Shown here: positions 11,701 to 31,480 of the stretch, in pieces | Layout of the letters: each line of letters starts with the position of its first letter | How positions within the stretch are numbered: position 1 is the stretch's first letter | Assembly (NCBI GenBank): GCA_002372855.1 | Contig: DFIZ01000064.1 | Coordinates: 31,566 to 63,177, forward strand | Length of the DNA stretch: 31,612 bases | DNA from: Bacteroidales bacterium UBA3684 | Lineage (GTDB): Bacteria; Bacteroidota; Bacteroidia; Bacteroidales; P3 | Direction of reading: 5' to 3' | Made by a program: the position numbers and the translations under genes | The notes under the pieces: generated by a model | Told to the model about the DNA's origin: nothing | The model's input: only the letters and a program-made list of their open reading frames with translations | Databases searched by the model: none

Positions 11701-11820
11701 GATGGCTATTTATCAGTGGTTTATGTGTTTTTGGTTTTTAGGGCGATTTTTCGTCGGGAAACGGAAACAATAAATCTGTTTTTTTTGCGTTATGAAGACA
11801 AAAATTTAAAACTACATATC

Positions 11821-13209
11821 ATGTTCAAGAAAGAGACATACATGGCTCGTCGCGAGCAACTGCGCAAGGACGTGGGTCGCGGCATCATCATCATTCCGGG
11901 CAACCACGAGGCGCCCTGCAACTACAAGGACAACACCTACTGGTTCCGCCAGGACAGCACGTTTCTCTATTTCTTCGGCCTTCAGCGCGAGGACCTGGTG
12001 GGAGTGCTGGACTGCGAGACAGGCAAAGACTATATCTTCGCCAACGACTACGACATCGACGACATCATCTGGACGGGTCCGCTGCCGAGCGTGAAGGAGC
12101 TGGCCGCCAGCGTGGGCGTGGAGAACAGCGGCGACATGAAGGCCATGGCGGAGTTCTGCCGGAAGGCCGTGTGCAGCGCCACGCGCGTGCATTTCCTGCC
12201 GCCCTACCGCGCCGACATCCGCGCCGACCTTGCCGCATGGCTGGGCCTGGACTACCACGCCGTGAACAGCTACGCCTCGATGGAGCTCATCCTGGCCTGC
12301 GTGAAACAGCGCAGCATCAAGAGTGCCGAGGAGATCGAGGAGATTGAGAAAGCCATTGCCACGGCCTACAACATGCACGTGGGCGCCATGAAGCTGGCCA
12401 TGCCAGGCCGCTACGAGTACGAGCTGGCGGGATTCATGGAGGGCGAGGCCTGGAAGGGCAACGGCCCCGTGAGCTTCCCCGTCATCATGACGGTGCACGG
12501 CGAGACGCTGCACAACCACGGCCACAACAACCGCCTGGAGGTGGGCCGCATGCTGGTGATGGACGCCGGCTGCGAGACGCCGATGAACTACTGCAGCGAC
12601 ATCACGCGCTCGGTGCCCGTGGGAGGCAAGTTCGACGAGCGCCAGAAGGCCATCTACGAGATTGTGCTGGCCGCCAATATGGAGGCCGCCCGCGTGACGC
12701 GTCCGGGCATCACCTACAAGGAGGTGCACACCGCCGCCAGCCGTGTGCTGGCCGAGGGCTACAAGGGCCTGGGCATACTGAAAGGGAGCGTGGACGACAT
12801 CGTGGCCAACGGAGCCCACAGCCTGCTGATGCCCCACGGCCTGGGCCACATGATGGGCCTCGACGTACACGATATGGAGAACTACGGCCAGATCAACGTG
12901 GGCTACGACGAAGAGACGCGCCCGAGCGAGCAGTTCGGCCTGGGCAGCCTGCGCTGCGGCCGGAGACTGCAGCCCGGTTTCGTCATCACCGACGAGCCCG
13001 GTTGCTACTTCATCCCCGCGCTGATCGACAAATGGCATGCCGAGGGCACGAACAAGGACTTCGTCAACTTCGACGAGCTGGAGAAATGGAAAGATTTCGG
13101 CGGTATCCGCATCGAGGACGACGTCCTGGTGACCGAGACCGGCGCCCGCGTGCTAGGCAAGCCGATACCCAAGACGGTGAAGGAGATTGAGGAGGTGATG
13201 AATAGTTAA
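11821..13209 (+). CDS. pepP: Xaa-Pro aminopeptidase (M24B, aminopeptidase P family)
   Basis: This enzyme removes the N-terminal residue from peptides with proline in second position. It works in the cytoplasm with two metal ions. The 462-residue product has an N-terminal creatinase-like domain (about 1-165, including YFFGL) and a C-terminal pita-bread domain. The five metal ligands are all visible: D248 (VMDAG), D260 (SDITR), H343 (HGLGH), E392 (DEPG) and E432 (GIRIEDD). No signal peptide is present. I chose ATG 11821 because homology-like sequence starts there. The open frame extends upstream to 11716, but that part is low-complexity and runs through leader sequence. The gene is divergent from the giant gene, and a 9-mer array begins two to five bases after its stop. 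Confidence 0.92.
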   Translation: MFKKETYMARREQLRKDVGRGIIIIPGNHEAPCNYKDNTYWFRQDSTFLYFFGLQREDLVGVLDCETGKDYIFANDYDIDDIIWTGPLPSVKELAASVGVENSGDMKAMAEFCRKAVCSATRVHFLPPYRADIRADLAAWLGLDYHAVNSYASMELILACVKQRSIKSAEEIEEIEKAIATAYNMHVGAMKLAMPGRYEYELAGFMEGEAWKGNGPVSFPVIMTVHGETLHNHGHNNRLEVGRMLVMDAGCETPMNYCSDITRSVPVGGKFDERQKAIYEIVLAANMEAARVTRPGITYKEVHTAASRVLAEGYKGLGILKGSVDDIVANGAHSLLMPHGLGHMMGLDVHDMENYGQINVGYDEETRPSEQFGLGSLRCGRRLQPGFVITDEPGCYFIPALIDKWHAEGTNKDFVNFDELEKWKDFGGIRIEDDVLVTETGARVLGKPIPKTVKEIEEVMNS

Positions 13210-13213
13210 AGGA

Positions 13214-13246
13214 GTTAGAGAAGTTAGAGAAGTTAGAGAAGTTAGA
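13214..13246 (+). repeat. 9-mer tandem array GTTAGAGAA (left arm)
   Basis: Three perfect copies of GTTAGAGAA plus GTTAGA directly follow the aminopeptidase stop codon (13207-13209). The unit is C-free. The array runs without a break into the four-helix-bundle remnant, and its reading frame is open into that remnant. An inverted array of related 9-mers lies at 13489-13530. Confidence 0.9.
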
Positions 13247-13468
13247 GGCGATGACAGTTACAAACGGATAGGAAAAGATGACAAACTACGGTTTTTCAAC
13301 TATTCACAAGGTAGCCTGGAGGAATGCCGCTGCTTTATCATCCTTTCAGGAGACCTTGGATACATCAACGAGCAAGAAGCCGTAAATTTGACAACAGAAA
13401 TTGAAGACACAAGCAGACTACTTAATTCATACATTCTGGCAATAACCAACAAAAGAATCCAAGAATAA
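13247..13468 (+). pseudogene. Four-helix-bundle protein (23S rRNA IVS-protein/Avd-like), C-terminal fragment
   Basis: This frame encodes about 73 residues ending in TAA at 13466-13468. The order GDDSYKRIGKDDKLRFFNYS, QGSLEECRCFIILSGDLGYI, then TTEIEDTSRLLNSYIL matches the second half of the four-helix-bundle family (normally about 120 residues). The family's SLEE, DLGYI and final-helix LLN/I patterns are all present. The N-terminal half (FxxLxVWxxA and the SIPxNIAEG region) is missing. Where it should be, the 9-mer array stands, fused in frame with no start codon. I therefore call it a truncated remnant. An intact family member is proposed to bind nucleic acid or a reverse transcriptase partner, but this copy is probably not translated. 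Confidence 0.68.
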
Positions 13469-13488
13469 TATCCGTCGATGTCGCTATT

Positions 13489-13530
13489 GTCTTTAAATTC
13501 TTTATCTTCTATAACTTCTTTAACTTCTTC
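13489..13530. repeat. Inverted 9-mer array TTCTTTAAC-type (right arm)
   Basis: Consecutive 9-base units GTCTTTAAA, TTCTTTATC, TTCTATAAC, TTCTTTAAC and a partial TTCTTC. The reverse complement of the left-arm unit (GTTAGAGAA) is TTCTCTAAC, which differs from TTCTTTAAC by one base. The two arrays therefore form inverted repeats around the gene remnant. It ends 16 bases before the nucleoside kinase start codon. Confidence 0.82.
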
Positions 13531-13546
13531 AAAAAATAAACGAACA

Positions 13547-15238
13547 ATGAACCAAGTGGAAATAGTGCTTGCCAATACGGGCGAGCGAAAGATGGTGGCT
13601 CAGGGGACGCAGGTCGCCGAGCTGGCCGCCGAATATACAAAGAAGAAAACCGCCGAGGACGGCAAGGCCCCGTGGCCGATACTGGGCGCCCTGGTGAACA
13701 ACAAGGTGGAGCCGCTGCAATACCGCATCTACAATCCCAAGGTGATCCGCCTGCTGGACATCACCGACCGCCAGGGTTTCCGCATGTACCGCAACGCGCT
13801 GTGCATGATGCTGTACACGGCAGTGCACGACTGCTACCCGAAGTCGGTACTGAGCATCGACCATTCGTTGCAGAACGGTTTCTACTGCCGCATCGAGAGC
13901 GCGGTGGAAGGCTACGAGCTGCCGGACAAGATGGAGGTGTGCCGCACGGTGAGAGAGCACATGATTGAGCTGCAGGAGCAGGACATACCCTTCACGGCGA
14001 AGACGATGTTGCTGAGCGATGCCGTGGAGCTTGTGCGTCCGCGCCACATGCCGAAGACCACCGACTTGCTGGAGCACCTGAACCAGCTGTACATAGAGAT
14101 GAATTTCCTTGGCGACACCGTGCATAAAATCAACGGCAAACTGGCTCCCAGCACGGGTTGCCTGACGACATGGGACTTCCGCCAGTACGAGGATGGATAC
14201 ATGCTCCAGTGCGCCGACCCGGAGCATCCCGACAAGCTGTCGCTCTTCCAGGAGACGCCCAAGCTCTTCGCCATTTTCCGCGAGCACCACGAGTGGGTGG
14301 ACCTGCTGCACACGCCGACGGTGAGCGACTACAACCGCATCGTGCACGACAAGGGCGGGCAGCACCTGATACTGCTTGCCGAGGCGCTGCACGAGAAGAA
14401 GTATGCCGAGATTGCCGACCAGGTGCGCCAGAGCGGTGCCAAGATGGTGCTGCTGGCAGGCCCCAGCAGCAGTGGCAAGACGACGTCGTGCCGCAGGTTG
14501 AGCGTGCAGCTGAGCGTGCTGGGATACGACGTGAACCAGATGTCGCTGGACGACTACTTCCTGGGCCGTGAGCGCACCCCCAAGCTGCCCAACGGCGAAT
14601 ACGACTTCGAAGGCGTCGACGCTCTCGACATACCGCTGCTCAACGAGCACCTGCTGGCCCTGTTCCGCGGCGAGGAGGTGAAGATACCGACCTACGACTT
14701 CAAGAAAGGCGAGCCTTTCTACAGCGGCAAGACGCTGAAGATGGGTCCGCGGAGCATCCTGGTGGTGGAGGGCATCCACGCCCTGAACCCCAAGCTGACG
14801 GCGGAAATCGACGAAGGTCTGAAGTTCAAAGTGTACGTCAGCGCCCTGACCCAGCTGGCCATCGACGGACAGAACATTATCCACGGCACGGACAACCGCC
14901 TGGTGCGCCGCATTGTGAGGGACAACAATTTCCGTGGATGGAATGCCAAGGAGACCCTGCACCGCTGGCCCGAAGTGGTGCGCGGCGAAAGGAAACACAT
15001 ATTCCCATATCAGGAGAATGCCAACGTGATGTTCAACTCGGCCCTGCTGTACGAGCTGGGAGTGCTGAAACGCTACGCCGAACCGTTGCTGAAGCAGGTG
15101 CCGGAGAACTGCGAGGAGTTCTCGATAGCCAAGCAGCTGCTTGACTTCTCGGAGCTGGTGGAGCCAATCGACGACAAGTTCATCCCCCACAACAGCATTA
15201 TGCGGGAATTCCTGGGAGGAAGTGCGTTTGAGTACTAA
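13547..15238 (+). CDS. Nucleoside kinase with TGS/ThrRS-like N-terminus and uridine kinase domain
   Basis: A 563-residue cytoplasmic P-loop kinase, likely phosphorylating uridine/cytidine or a related nucleoside for salvage. Residues 1-60 resemble a TGS domain. Residues about 60-250 resemble the second additional domain of threonyl-tRNA synthetase. The kinase domain starts near 295 with Walker A GPSSSGKTT (305-313), then DDYF (335-338), the FEGVDALD substrate region, and EGIHALN (408-414). This three-part architecture is common in Bacteroidetes and Firmicutes, where it is annotated as nucleoside kinase or uridine kinase-like. I chose ATG 13547 (MNQVEI); an in-frame ATG at 13478 would translate the 9-mer array. 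The substrate is inferred. It faces aroK convergently. Confidence 0.88.
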   Translation: MNQVEIVLANTGERKMVAQGTQVAELAAEYTKKKTAEDGKAPWPILGALVNNKVEPLQYRIYNPKVIRLLDITDRQGFRMYRNALCMMLYTAVHDCYPKSVLSIDHSLQNGFYCRIESAVEGYELPDKMEVCRTVREHMIELQEQDIPFTAKTMLLSDAVELVRPRHMPKTTDLLEHLNQLYIEMNFLGDTVHKINGKLAPSTGCLTTWDFRQYEDGYMLQCADPEHPDKLSLFQETPKLFAIFREHHEWVDLLHTPTVSDYNRIVHDKGGQHLILLAEALHEKKYAEIADQVRQSGAKMVLLAGPSSSGKTTSCRRLSVQLSVLGYDVNQMSLDDYFLGRERTPKLPNGEYDFEGVDALDIPLLNEHLLALFRGEEVKIPTYDFKKGEPFYSGKTLKMGPRSILVVEGIHALNPKLTAEIDEGLKFKVYVSALTQLAIDGQNIIHGTDNRLVRRIVRDNNFRGWNAKETLHRWPEVVRGERKHIFPYQENANVMFNSALLYELGVLKRYAEPLLKQVPENCEEFSIAKQLLDFSELVEPIDDKFIPHNSIMREFLGGSAFEY

Positions 15239-19477: not shown

Positions 19478-20919
19478 TGTTGTTGTTTTTTATTTTCTGG
19501 TGAATCAGTATAGGGGTCAGACGGTACCAACGGACCCAGGAGAGGGTGCACCATTATCTCGGGGCATATCTCTGCCAGCATGGCAGGAGACACATCGGGA
19601 AGCATCCGCCGTGCACGATTGTATCGGTTGGTATAGAAATAGGCCGCAGCCAAATAAGTGCTATAGAAAGAACTGTGAGGATATACGCCAAGAGACTCTT
19701 CGGCAAATTCTATCACTATGTCGAATACCTTGTGTTTGAAAAGGAACTGGGTGTAGAGTTGACACTGAGGTTCGGTGTAGAGCCCCGTTGCAATGAGCCG
19801 CTCAAAAAAGTCAGAAGCCTTGTAGAAATCGTCAAGAGCATCATAAACCATGGCAGCCGCACAAAGTACTTCTGGATTACCTTCTGGACAATCGGCCGAT
19901 GGGAAAGTTTCATCAAGCTGGACGGCTCGGTTGACCTTGGAAAGCGCTGTTGCGCTGTCGCCCAACTCCATGTAGCAAAGTGCCAATGACGCGAAAGCCT
20001 CTGCATCGTGAGGATTGCTTTCTGTGGCCTTTATGAAATAGGCCATCGCAGTGTCATAGTTGGCTTCGCGGGCATAAAGATTTCCAATGGTACGATAGAC
20101 TTTGGCATAATCGTCGTAGAAATCAAGCACCCGGAGCATTGTAGTCACAGCCTCACTGGTAAGGCCCATAAAGTCTTGCGTCTGCGAGAGGGCTATGTAG
20201 GCGTCGACATAGTTTTTGTCGATAGCAATGGCGAATTCAAAAGAGTCCACCGCCTTCTCATAGAGCGTCATGTCGCGATAGGCACAACCGAGACAGTACC
20301 AAGCCTCTTTGCAATAAGGATTATCTTTCACGAAATTCCCAAGGAAATCCACTGCCTGCTCAATGCGCCCGGCTTCATAGGAGACATCATAATAATTGTA
20401 TACCGTTATCTCGTCGTATGAATCGCTTTCCATTGCTTTGCGGTAGAAGTTCAGTGCAGCATCGTAGTCTTTCAGCTTGTAGTATTCTTCAGCCATGTTG
20501 GAGTAGACACGTCCCAGCATCCAGCCATCGCGAGCTGCCTCTTTGAAATAGGCTATGGCTTTTTCCGACTGGCCCACGGCACCATTGGCCACACCAAGAG
20601 AGTATGCCACGTCCGTGTTGTCAGGCTCGGCCTGACGCATCTGATTCAGCACTTGCAAAGCCTGCGCGTATTGTTCATGAGAAATCATAAGATGGGCTCG
20701 TCGGAGACGGATGGTGGTGCTGTTGGGGTAGAGCTCTTCCGCATACTCGACTGCACGTTCGAGTGGTTTCAGGTCGTTTACCTCAAAATAGTAGTCAATG
20801 ATTATCTCCAGTTCGTCGACGTCGAAGAACTGGGTCTTGCCTTTGAGCACTGTATTCTCAAAGTCGAGCACCAAATCGCGCACTTCATCATCGAAATTAT
20901 GGAATCTGTCTTTTTTCAT
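19474..20919 (-). CDS. Tetratricopeptide repeat protein
   Basis: A 481-residue cytoplasmic scaffold made almost wholly of TPR helices. Recognisable units include AYSLGVANGAVGQSEKAIAY, YSNMAEEYYKLKDYDAALNF, WYCLGCAYRDMTLYEKAVDS, YRTIGNLYAREANYDTAMAY and FASLALCYMELGDSATALSK. There is no signal peptide or membrane segment. The tail is polar and ends KKQQQ. The start codon directly follows the sprA stop (TAAATG on the - strand) and the stop overlaps dedA by 4 bases, so translation is probably coupled to sprA. This suggests a support role for secretion or envelope work, but no partner can be named from sequence. Confidence 0.88.
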   Translation of the reverse strand: MKKDRFHNFDDEVRDLVLDFENTVLKGKTQFFDVDELEIIIDYYFEVNDLKPLERAVEYAEELYPNSTTIRLRRAHLMISHEQYAQALQVLNQMRQAEPDNTDVAYSLGVANGAVGQSEKAIAYFKEAARDGWMLGRVYSNMAEEYYKLKDYDAALNFYRKAMESDSYDEITVYNYYDVSYEAGRIEQAVDFLGNFVKDNPYCKEAWYCLGCAYRDMTLYEKAVDSFEFAIAIDKNYVDAYIALSQTQDFMGLTSEAVTTMLRVLDFYDDYAKVYRTIGNLYAREANYDTAMAYFIKATESNPHDAEAFASLALCYMELGDSATALSKVNRAVQLDETFPSADCPEGNPEVLCAAAMVYDALDDFYKASDFFERLIATGLYTEPQCQLYTQFLFKHKVFDIVIEFAEESLGVYPHSSFYSTYLAAAYFYTNRYNRARRMLPDVSPAMLAEICPEIMVHPLLGPLVPSDPYTDSPENKKQQQ

Positions 20920-28035: not shown

Positions 28036-28141
28036 TTAGTCCTTTTTCTCTTTCAACCCTACCAAAACGCAATTCCTCGACAAATATTGTATCGCCCCAA
28101 TAATAAAAATATAAAAATTATTAAAATCCCCCCAACTCCCC

Positions 28142-28208
28142 ACTACTCACTAAATACTAAACACTAAACACTGAACACTAAACACTACTCACTAAACACT
28201 AAACACTG
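28142..28208. repeat. Nine heptamers ACTAAAC in the ruvA-sprA spacer
   Basis: Nine consecutive 7-base units (28142-28204) plus ACTG. Six are ACTAAAC-like, with variants ACTAAAT and ACTGAAC. ACTACTC appears as units 1 and 7, hinting at a 42-base higher-order period. On the - strand the unit GTTTAGT is C-free. It lies ten bases after the ruvA stop and about 107 bases before the sprA start. The rest of the 183-base spacer (28036-28141) is AT-rich with no gene. Confidence 0.92.
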
Positions 28209-28818: not shown

Positions 28819-28834
28819 ATTCGTTTTGTTTTTT

Positions 28835-28869
28835 TCAATTTTCAATTCTCAATTTTCAATTTTCAATTC
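28835..28869. repeat. Five heptamers TCAATTT/TCAATTC across the lipoprotein stop codon
   Basis: Five consecutive 7-base units (TCAATTT, TCAATTC, TCAATTT, TCAATTT, TCAATTC). On the - strand the unit is C-free. The lipoprotein stop (28856-28858) and its last three codons are made of this repeat, and the rest fills the 37-base gap before ruvA. Confidence 0.92.
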
Positions 28870-30165: not shown

Positions 30166-30221
30166 ACTCAGCCACTCAGTCACTCAGCCACTCAGTCACT
30201 CAGCCACTCAGCCACTCCGTC
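30166..30221. repeat. Seven octamers ACTCAGCC/ACTCAGTC after the M64 gene
   Basis: Seven consecutive 8-base units alternate ACTCAGCC and ACTCAGTC, with a last variant ACTCCGTC. The array begins two bases after the M64 stop codon (30224-30226, read on -) and fills most of the 69-base gap to the lipoprotein start. On the - strand the unit (GGCTGAGT/GACTGAGT) has a single C. Confidence 0.92.
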
Positions 30222-30223
30222 AC

Positions 30224-31480
30224 TCACTTCGCGTACATCGAGAACACCTCCTCCAGCCGCTTGGTGCACACCGGGCAGAAGGGCGCGTAGTCGCGCATCA
30301 TGCAGTGCATCGTGGGCCGGTAGACACCCTTGTAGGCATAGCCCGCGCCCTCGTAGACCCCCAGGGGGCCGCACTCGTTCTTCGGCACGTCGACATTGTC
30401 GGGCGTGGGCACCTTGGTGCCCGACGGGAGCATGGTCTTCCACTTGCGCCCGAAGTCCTTGAGGTTGGTGATGTTGGGTTCCAGGGGCTCGTAGTCGTTG
30501 ATGTGGAGGTTGCCGTAGGCCAGGTCCTCGTCGACATACTCGTCGGCCAGGCCGCCGAAGGCATGGCCGAACTCGTGCGGCAGCACGTACTCCGCCAGGC
30601 GGTGCATGCTGGCAACGGCGTAGAAGTTGTAGATGGCGCCGCCGCCGTAGCGCTCGTCGTTGACCATGATGATGATATAGTCGCAGGGCGTGGTGCCCAG
30701 CGCGTCGTGCAGCTTCCACAGGCTGAAAGTCATCAGGTAGCGGTCGATGCCGAAGGTGCCGAACTCCGCGTCCACGTCGGCCTTGACGCCGTAGACGTTG
30801 AAGTCGTCGCGATGGCTCTTGAAAGGCTCCTGCCCGAAGAGGATTTCCTTCATGCGGTAGTAGTCCACGCGCAGCTGCGGGTCGCTCATGCCGTTGTAGC
30901 CCTGGGCCACGATGGCCACGTCCACCTTGTCCTCCGGGGCGCCGTGCAGCTCCAGGTCGGTGCGCTGGCCGATATGGTAGTTGAAGTCGAGCTCCTGCTC
31001 GTCGGGGTCGAAGGGCACCACCGTCTGGTCCACCAGCTGCATGTTGTCGTCCCTGCGCTGCAGGGCAATCAGCACCTTGCGCTTGGGCATGGGCAGCAGC
31101 AGCGTCTCCTCGAAGCGCGCCTTCACCTTGCGGCCCTTGGCCGTGCCCTTGTATTCACGGAAGAGGTTGCTGTAGCCCTTGGAGTAGATGACCTTGCCGC
31201 TCTTGGCGTCGCGCATCTCCACGCGGTAGTCGCCGTTGTCGAAGGGGTCGACGAGCACCTCGCGGCTGCCGTGCCACTCGGCCGAACGGTCGAGCCAGCG
31301 GCTCACCCACACGGTGTCGCCCTGGGCGTTGCCCTCGCGCGAGCAGTCCAGACGCAGCGTCCCGCCGGTGAAATATTTCTTGAACCTCACGTTCTGCGCA
31401 CCGGCCGCACCCTGCACCATCACCATCGCCGCCGCAAGCAGCAGAACACTCATAAACCTATGCTGTTTCATCATTTTCAT
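30224..31480 (-). CDS. M64 family zinc metallopeptidase
   Basis: A 418-residue exported protease of the IgA-peptidase M64 family. Residues 1-28 are a signal peptide ending AGA before Q29. Residues about 30-165 form a beta N-terminal domain of the M64_N type. The catalytic domain begins near VDVAIVAQGYNG (187-197). The zinc motif HEFGHAFGGLADEY places H302, E303 and H306, with the conserved DEY at 313-315. Four C-terminal cysteines (C370, C393, C402, C405) may bind metal or form disulfides. There is no T9SS sorting domain and no lipobox, so it is probably periplasmic or released. IgA cleavage is known only for one founding member and should not be assumed. The start at 31480 has alternatives at 31471 and 31474. 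Confidence 0.9.
   Translation of the reverse strand: MKMMKQHRFMSVLLLAAAMVMVQGAAGAQNVRFKKYFTGGTLRLDCSREGNAQGDTVWVSRWLDRSAEWHGSREVLVDPFDNGDYRVEMRDAKSGKVIYSKGYSNLFREYKGTAKGRKVKARFEETLLLPMPKRKVLIALQRRDDNMQLVDQTVVPFDPDEQELDFNYHIGQRTDLELHGAPEDKVDVAIVAQGYNGMSDPQLRVDYYRMKEILFGQEPFKSHRDDFNVYGVKADVDAEFGTFGIDRYLMTFSLWKLHDALGTTPCDYIIIMVNDERYGGGAIYNFYAVASMHRLAEYVLPHEFGHAFGGLADEYVDEDLAYGNLHINDYEPLEPNITNLKDFGRKWKTMLPSGTKVPTPDNVDVPKNECGPLGVYEGAGYAYKGVYRPTMHCMMRDYAPFCPVCTKRLEEVFSMYAK

Follow-up and report, generated by a model that had tools for sequence, protein, structure and literature searches.

The window, i.e. the whole stretch of 31,612 nucleotides that was analysed, belongs to a genome (G000) that is 79% complete. 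Between the genes for aminopeptidase P (pepP) and a uridine-kinase-type protein, it carries the C-terminal part of a gene of the four-helix-bundle (4HB) family, the gene family matched by PF05635 and TIGR02436, enclosed by two short tandem arrays referred to below as the 5' and 3' arms (Table 1). TRF places these arrays at 13204-13247 and 13490-13529 and finds them mutually inverted, in agreement with the preliminary description, which had reported inverted 9-mer arrays on either side of a gene remnant. Its picture of a compact element lying between two housekeeping genes likewise holds, with the array-to-array extent corrected to about 13204-13529 and the neighbours to the two gene types named above. 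The 5' arm begins at the stop codon of aminopeptidase P and is in frame with the gene fragment. The ORF tool set the kinase start at 13478; the ATG at 13547 was picked from alignments to relatives.

Table 1. Features of the element and its host genes (window coordinates)
Feature	Position	Strand	Details
Upstream host gene, aminopeptidase P	11716..13209	+	PF00557, PF05195; first start codon taken, true start perhaps further in
5' arm, tandem array	13204..13247	+	AGTTAGAGA x4.9, 94% matches (TRF)
4HB gene, C-terminal part	13247..13468	+	PF05635 positions 50-106; stop TAA 13466-13468
Inner motif TATTGTC (GACAATA on the - strand)	13485..13491	-	resembles the motif just inside the arrays of related intact elements
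3' arm, inverted tandem array	13490..13529	-	TCTTTAACT x4.4, 83% matches (TRF); read on the - strand, AGTTAAAGA type units
Downstream host gene, uridine-kinase-type protein	13547..15238	+	PF00485

The frame at 13247-13468 had been described as the second half of a 4HB protein, and the profile search proposed as a check bears this out: 13247-13465 matches PF05635 with 42.8 bits (cut-off 33.8, E 6.6e-11) and TIGR02436 with 42.3 bits (cut-off 24), but only over profile positions 50-106 and 45-106, respectively. Since the match is confined to the profile from about position 45-50, the N-terminal half of the window gene is missing. As also described, the repeats stand in its place and are fused in frame: 13205-13465 is free of stop codons, joins the repeats to the gene and gives an 87-residue translation. 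The inner motif was seen in the window in its 3' copy, with no 5' copy. In the predicted RNA fold of 13200-13545, the two arrays form the closing stem (z = -7.3), and an equally stable fold was obtained in 0/100 shuffles. Rfam gave no match in the window, and membership in a known RNA family was rejected after a scan of six sources, whose sole match was a tRNA in another locus (L225).

We compared the pepP-kinase gap in the best 30 kinase loci and sorted the gaps by eye; one locus is that of the window, and the other 29 came from a search of 119 genomes of the same genus. In 10 of the 30 gaps, the 4HB gene is whole or almost so and has inverted arrays; in one of these (L205), the 4HB frame continues beyond the usual stop. 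The window gap is a further one, with the N-terminal half of the 4HB gene lost. Gene-less inverted arrays are found in two gaps, with 4HB-type ends in L186 and GxxExxY-like ends in L203, and leftovers in four (L183, L188, L189 and L202). In eleven gaps, which measure 34 nt at most, no clear array can be made out; nine of the eleven have host genes overlapping at ATGA, so that relatives free of the element, which the preliminary description had proposed to look for, do exist at this site. Lastly, the L207 gap is cut by the end of the locus and the L208 gap holds other sequence. The slot is, in other words, occupied, empty or differently occupied among relatives; empty and filled sites differ at the ATGA overlap, with no clear target-site duplication by eye. 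Because the close relative G104 (L180), whose kinase is 99% identical to that of the window, has a full-length 4HB gene in this very gap, the window copy is a decayed one.

In the same comparison, in which unit labels were assigned by eye, the units follow the lineage of the 4HB gene more closely than that of the host, which is no demonstration of vertical change in place. Two further observations were made at this site. The 4HB proteins of L197 and L198 are 99% identical while the adjacent kinases are about 87% identical, a hint at recent transfer or local recombination, and in L185, L197, L198 and L061 the 3' arm and its inner motif together form a larger unit, repeated two or more times in each.

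Enrichment of inverted arrays around intact homologues, one of the checks that had been proposed, was measured by local alignment of the 300 bp upstream of each gene with the 300 bp downstream, the latter taken as the reverse complement (threshold score, 16); genes flanked on one side or both by fewer than 120 bp were left out (one in the first set, one in the combined set). In the first Bacteroidales set, the inverted flanks matched in 134/161 4HB genes, as compared to 8/161 in direct orientation and 11/735 control ORFs from the same loci; when arms were swapped between loci, 7.8% of 8000 pairs reached the threshold. In the combined sets, inverted flanks matched in 164 of 222 distinct 4HB genes (direct orientation, 11/222; Fisher p 7e-119), which leaves 58 below the threshold; these counts are not independent, as the sequences and pairs are related. 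The total breaks down into 79/82 in one set of loci, 63/88 plus 1/1 in the genus, 5/7 in G000, 10/30 in the phylum-wide set and 6/14 on plasmids, mostly cyanobacterial. In the phylum and plasmid sets, direct matches numbered 2/30 and 1/14, and swapped arms reached the threshold in 0.5% and 3.3% of cases. The lower rate outside Bacteroidales counts against full generality; many of the elements below the threshold there carry the same kind of repeat in a degenerate form. Control genes with real gaps on both sides reached the threshold in 6/223 cases, and dinucleotide-block shuffles of the 4HB flanks in 0/666. Neither of the refuting outcomes named in the preliminary description, a fragment lacking a profile match or intact homologues lacking enrichment, was observed. 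G000 itself has nine PF05635 matches, eight of which lie by eye between inverted arrays of differing units; seven full-length genes have arrays by eye, and five of them pass the threshold.

A longer (about 150 aa), low-scoring 4HB paralogue (L008:1459-1911 and its homologues in L036, L037, L316 and L324-L326) seems to be present once per genome in most same-genus genomes, and matching inverted flanks were found in 0/7 of its copies. Weak PF05635 matches, covering about positions 1-76 of the profile, occur within longer open frames in many same-genus genomes, and on cyanobacterial plasmids (L271, L275 and L277) 4HB genes lie between cas genes (cas10-cmr3, cas6-cas4).

The arrays near 4HB genes are built of short units, with a period of 7 to 11 bp in 267 out of 282. 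The units vary between loci yet match between the two arms of one element. This is best seen in the elements with GXAGT units: X (G in 41, A in 17 and T in 11) is identical in both arms in 69/69 elements, where 30 would be expected, an agreement matched in 0/5000 permutations, and the dinucleotide after AGT is concordant between arms in 60/64. Changes in the arms involve whole units, not single pairs. An intact element starts with an array, its units mostly 7-11 bp long, continues with a 4HB gene of some 125 codons and closes with the inverted array. In one protein subfamily, an inner motif of the GACRA type often precedes the gene and recurs inverted after it: the strict form, RRGACRA, is present on both sides in 34/167 elements of this subfamily and 0/49 of another (34/222 overall, 7/735 controls).

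We then compared pairs of elements with at least 1 kb of flank whose 4HB proteins are at least 80% identical; memberships overlap, so that the pairs are not independent, and 42 of them share both neighbours whereas 38 share none. For the latter, the median 5'-arm score is 25.75, as compared to 8.0 for 3776 pairs of 40-60% identity, and a score of at least 16 is reached by 89% of them, as compared to 2.7% of the 3776. Similar 4HB genes in different neighbourhoods are thus accompanied by similar arms, which indicates that gene and arms move as one unit. The suggestion, made at the outset, of a small repeat-associated mobile element is thereby upheld in part, as regards a recurring unit of gene plus inverted arrays and the association of the two in different neighbourhoods.

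Individual sites were also aligned. At one G000 site (L003) and its counterpart in G104 (L318), the flanks are 96% (1325/1377) and 90% (1203/1338) identical in DNA sequence, the 4HB proteins are 69% identical (81/117 aligned residues), and both arms are built of another unit (GTGTTTA in G000, GTGATGA in G104); the element may have been replaced, or may have changed fast in place. At the L025 site, the flanks of G020 and G026 are 91% and 97% identical; G026 carries a 4HB element, and G020 carries 214 nt of other repeats with the 4HB gene absent. At the guanylyltransferase site of L101, the relatives are too distant to compare. In 108/121 cases, the 5' arm has its outer end no more than 30 nt from the stop codon of the upstream gene (median +3). 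In gaps between co-directional neighbours, 142 of the 4HB genes share the direction of the neighbours and 12 run opposite to it, as compared to 270 and 144 for control genes; the neighbour calls behind both the stop-codon and the orientation counts come from a crude ORF caller. The sense orientation fits expression from the host transcript. Together with the placement at stop codons, it may reflect selection after random insertion rather than targeting.

Arrays are also found away from these genes. A survey of 1.59 Mb of loci, nearly all fetched for their 4HB genes, gave 842 arrays; 327 of them, mostly intergenic, are not near any 4HB or GxxExxY gene. Of the inverted array pairs, 122 have a 4HB gene between them; 20 others, at least 200 bp apart (the window's being one), surround no full-length 4HB gene, and a further 54 are short, with no gene inside. 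Direct-orientation pairs number 73, including 3 around 4HB genes. Because the sampling favours 4HB pairs, these counts are not genome-wide proportions. Gene-less copies with GACRA-type ends are present in L049, L050 and L130. High-copy mini-elements were considered and rejected on the basis of repeat searches in G000 and 31 genomes: a 71-bp stretch of a gene-less G000 element has eight matches, one of which is another full-length one (90% identical, about 1 kb away), and one further pattern was found once in the 31 genomes, at its own site.

Several gene-less arrays were noted individually. G000 has two gene-less inverted-array elements about 1 kb apart (L046:18790-18920 and 19820-19990), the cores of which are 90% identical. 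In the window, a gene-less inverted pair, (AATTAGA)n / (AATTCCT)n, the arrays of which are separated by 29 bp, lies at 46-272 beside a gene ending at 338, and single tandem arrays of 7-8 bp units lie at or just after stop codons (28141-28207, 28832-28868 and 30166-30226); the latter three have the unit in sense orientation, as in 5' arms, and are possibly remains of elements.

GxxExxY genes (TIGR04256; PF13366 nuclease fold, PD-(D/E)XK-fold) showed a similar arrangement. Thirty loci were fetched (L209-L238), six of which had no ORF by the pattern used; matching inverted flanks were found in 18/24, direct ones in 1/24, and 10.7% of swapped arms matched. Their flanking units are of their own type (CGAATTACT, GGAAATCT).

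The 4HB protein looks to be under purifying selection, judging from a median dN/dS of 0.088 over 37 measurable pairs (the other 172 of 209, mostly saturated, gave no value). The protein therefore does something, although dN/dS does not show what. Among 216 4HB proteins, one glutamine, one serine, one asparagine and two glutamates have conservation values that round to 1.00. The solved relatives by sequence are 2gsc (XCC0516) and 2rld, from Bacteroides thetaiotaomicron; no catalytic domain was found in the elements. PF05635 matches occur in 116 of the 148 genomes sampled across the window's phylum, often several per genome. An intact relative (L001) matches PHROG 3206 (E 1.7e-6) and falls below the cut-offs of both Avd models (NF033474, 31.6 of 80 bits; bAvd, 21.7 of 40 bits). 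PADLOC has no match for this protein, and membership in a known defence system was rejected. In the portions of the literature searched, no function of PF05635 proteins beyond Avd-like roles was found. Avd-like proteins are known to partner with reverse transcriptases, but a requirement for such a partner is not supported here: RVT_1 has 0 matches in G000 (79% complete) and is absent, as counted by eye, from 36 of the 62 genomes that have at least five PF05635 matches, including the single-contig genomes G147 and G213. On these grounds, the idea that the genome has to encode a reverse transcriptase was rejected.

Altogether, we consider it probable that the region is a decayed small mobile element, foldback-like and selfish, with a content akin to that of rRNA intervening sequences (IVSs). 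When such an element is single-stranded, its inverted arrays would fold onto each other and one arm could serve as the template for the other; templating of this kind would keep the array in step on both sides while the unit drifts. This arm-to-arm copying, which we infer, fits the 69/69 agreement, as would in-place gene conversion or selection for pairing, either of which would produce the same arm agreement. The 4HB protein, remotely homologous to Avd and to the IVS protein, would be read from the host operon transcript, bind the folded ends and thereby promote copying or insertion at gene ends; its role, a joining enzyme and the mode of movement are what we infer for the intact elements.

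Part of the evidence is shared with an IVS-like reading, in which the arms would form a transcript stem with the gene in its loop, putatively trimmed by RNase III to keep the host operon functional, and would co-vary by compensatory selection instead of copying. Indeed, the arms close a strong predicted stem even in the decayed window copy, the elements are mostly sense-oriented between host genes, and rRNA IVSs carry a 4HB ORF and undergo RNase III excision, with heptamers preceding the ORF in Coxiella, according to the available portion of PMC4990558. Yet whole units rather than single pairs change together, and a wobble asymmetry of the sense RNA, considered as a sign of RNA-level selection, was rejected, since arm mismatches that are G-U-compatible in the sense strand numbered 147 versus 173 of the antisense type (p = 0.16). 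We regard this reading as rather unlikely, and still less favour the idea that the arrays are ordinary host intergenic features and that the 4HB gene inserts into pre-existing inverted pairs. Arrays are certainly common, with 842 in the 1.59 Mb surveyed and 54 short gene-less inverted pairs, and the part of PMC4692102 available reports 70 and 75 inverted GGGAATC pairs in two Xanthomonas genomes; however, the pairs in different neighbourhoods mostly share similar 5' arms (89% of 38 versus 2.7% of 3776), and at 9 of the 30 pepP-kinase loci the host genes overlap with the array absent.

Very unlikely, in our opinion, is a retroelement in which the 4HB protein acts as Avd does, together with a reverse transcriptase provided in trans. 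Its remote similarity to Avd (PHROG 3206 and the 31.6 bits of NF033474 for L001) speaks for it, as does PMC10053308, the available text of which notes that PF05635 resembles Avd, including in structure, and is the most common Pfam in collected DGR data, a point that counts against a reading free of reverse transcriptase. The scores below the Avd cut-offs and the 36/62 multi-copy genomes lacking RVT_1, among them the two of a single contig, speak against it; past movement with a reverse transcriptase that has since been lost may have occurred. As for chance or low-complexity flanks, short repeats are frequent in these genomes, but the 0/666 shuffles, the 6/223 real-gap controls and the 69/69 unit agreement refute this explanation.

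More tentatively, and as a possibility to which we give somewhat less than even credence, the mobile elements proposed here could make up a widespread bacterial class of foldback-type selfish DNA, with one 4HB protein and self-matching arms, no transposase or reverse transcriptase of its own, mobility between gene ends, and arms rewritten together so that each element has a private code. The rRNA IVSs would then be a special case, many of the gene-less inverted arrays of Bacteroidota, cyanobacteria and Xanthomonas would be remains, and GxxExxY elements would represent a second family. Linked to arms that travel with them, PF05635 genes become a mobile-element family, which provides a lead on the job of a little-characterised protein family within what looks like little-noticed mobile DNA. 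This link also suggests where many of the short tandem arrays between genes come from and would make the spread of rRNA IVSs, an old question, testable in cultured bacteria.

Among known systems, the eukaryotic foldback (FB) elements end in long inverted repeats composed of short tandem units, and their loop may or may not contain a gene. The elements described here likewise end in inverted arrays of short tandem units, but are bacterial, span a few hundred bases and encode another protein, with no evidence of common descent. REPtrons consist of a small gene, encoding the Y1 transposase RAYT, flanked by inverted short repeats, along with many gene-less repeats per genome. By contrast, the gene between the arrays here matches PF05635 and encodes a 4HB protein rather than a Y1 transposase, and the repeat units vary from locus to locus. 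The Xanthomonas GGGAATC repeats (PMC4692102, in the part available) resemble the present arrays in being 7-bp intergenic arrays, often in inverted pairs, and the Nostoc GGGGA(T/C)T repeats in being short tandem heptamer repeats forming 7-bp intergenic arrays; in both cases, the accessible accounts follow one unit genome-wide and draw no link with a gene family. The Avd protein of DGRs shares remote sequence similarity with the 4HB protein and, according to the available text of PMC10053308, a structural likeness, whereas the protein studied here is below the Avd cut-offs and RVT_1 is absent from G000.

In titles and the openings of abstracts, a coverage that leaves most subscription papers and preprints outside, we found no earlier report joining 4HB genes to inverted tandem arrays, and the available portions of PMC4990558 and PMC4692102 do not join the IVS and Xanthomonas heptamer literatures. 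A further parallel is the 23S rRNA IVS. As described in the part of PMC4990558 available, it likewise comprises a 4HB ORF within inverted-repeat ends and is suspected to be mobile, tandem heptamers precede the ORF in the Coxiella IVS, and an older idea held that such an ORF served mobility. The ends of the window element are also predicted to pair around the 4HB ORF (z -7.3). Unlike an IVS, however, this element lies between the aminopeptidase P and kinase genes instead of within a 23S rRNA gene; elements of its kind sit between protein genes at stop codons, in many copies per genome, and have on either side a tandem array whose unit is specific to the locus.
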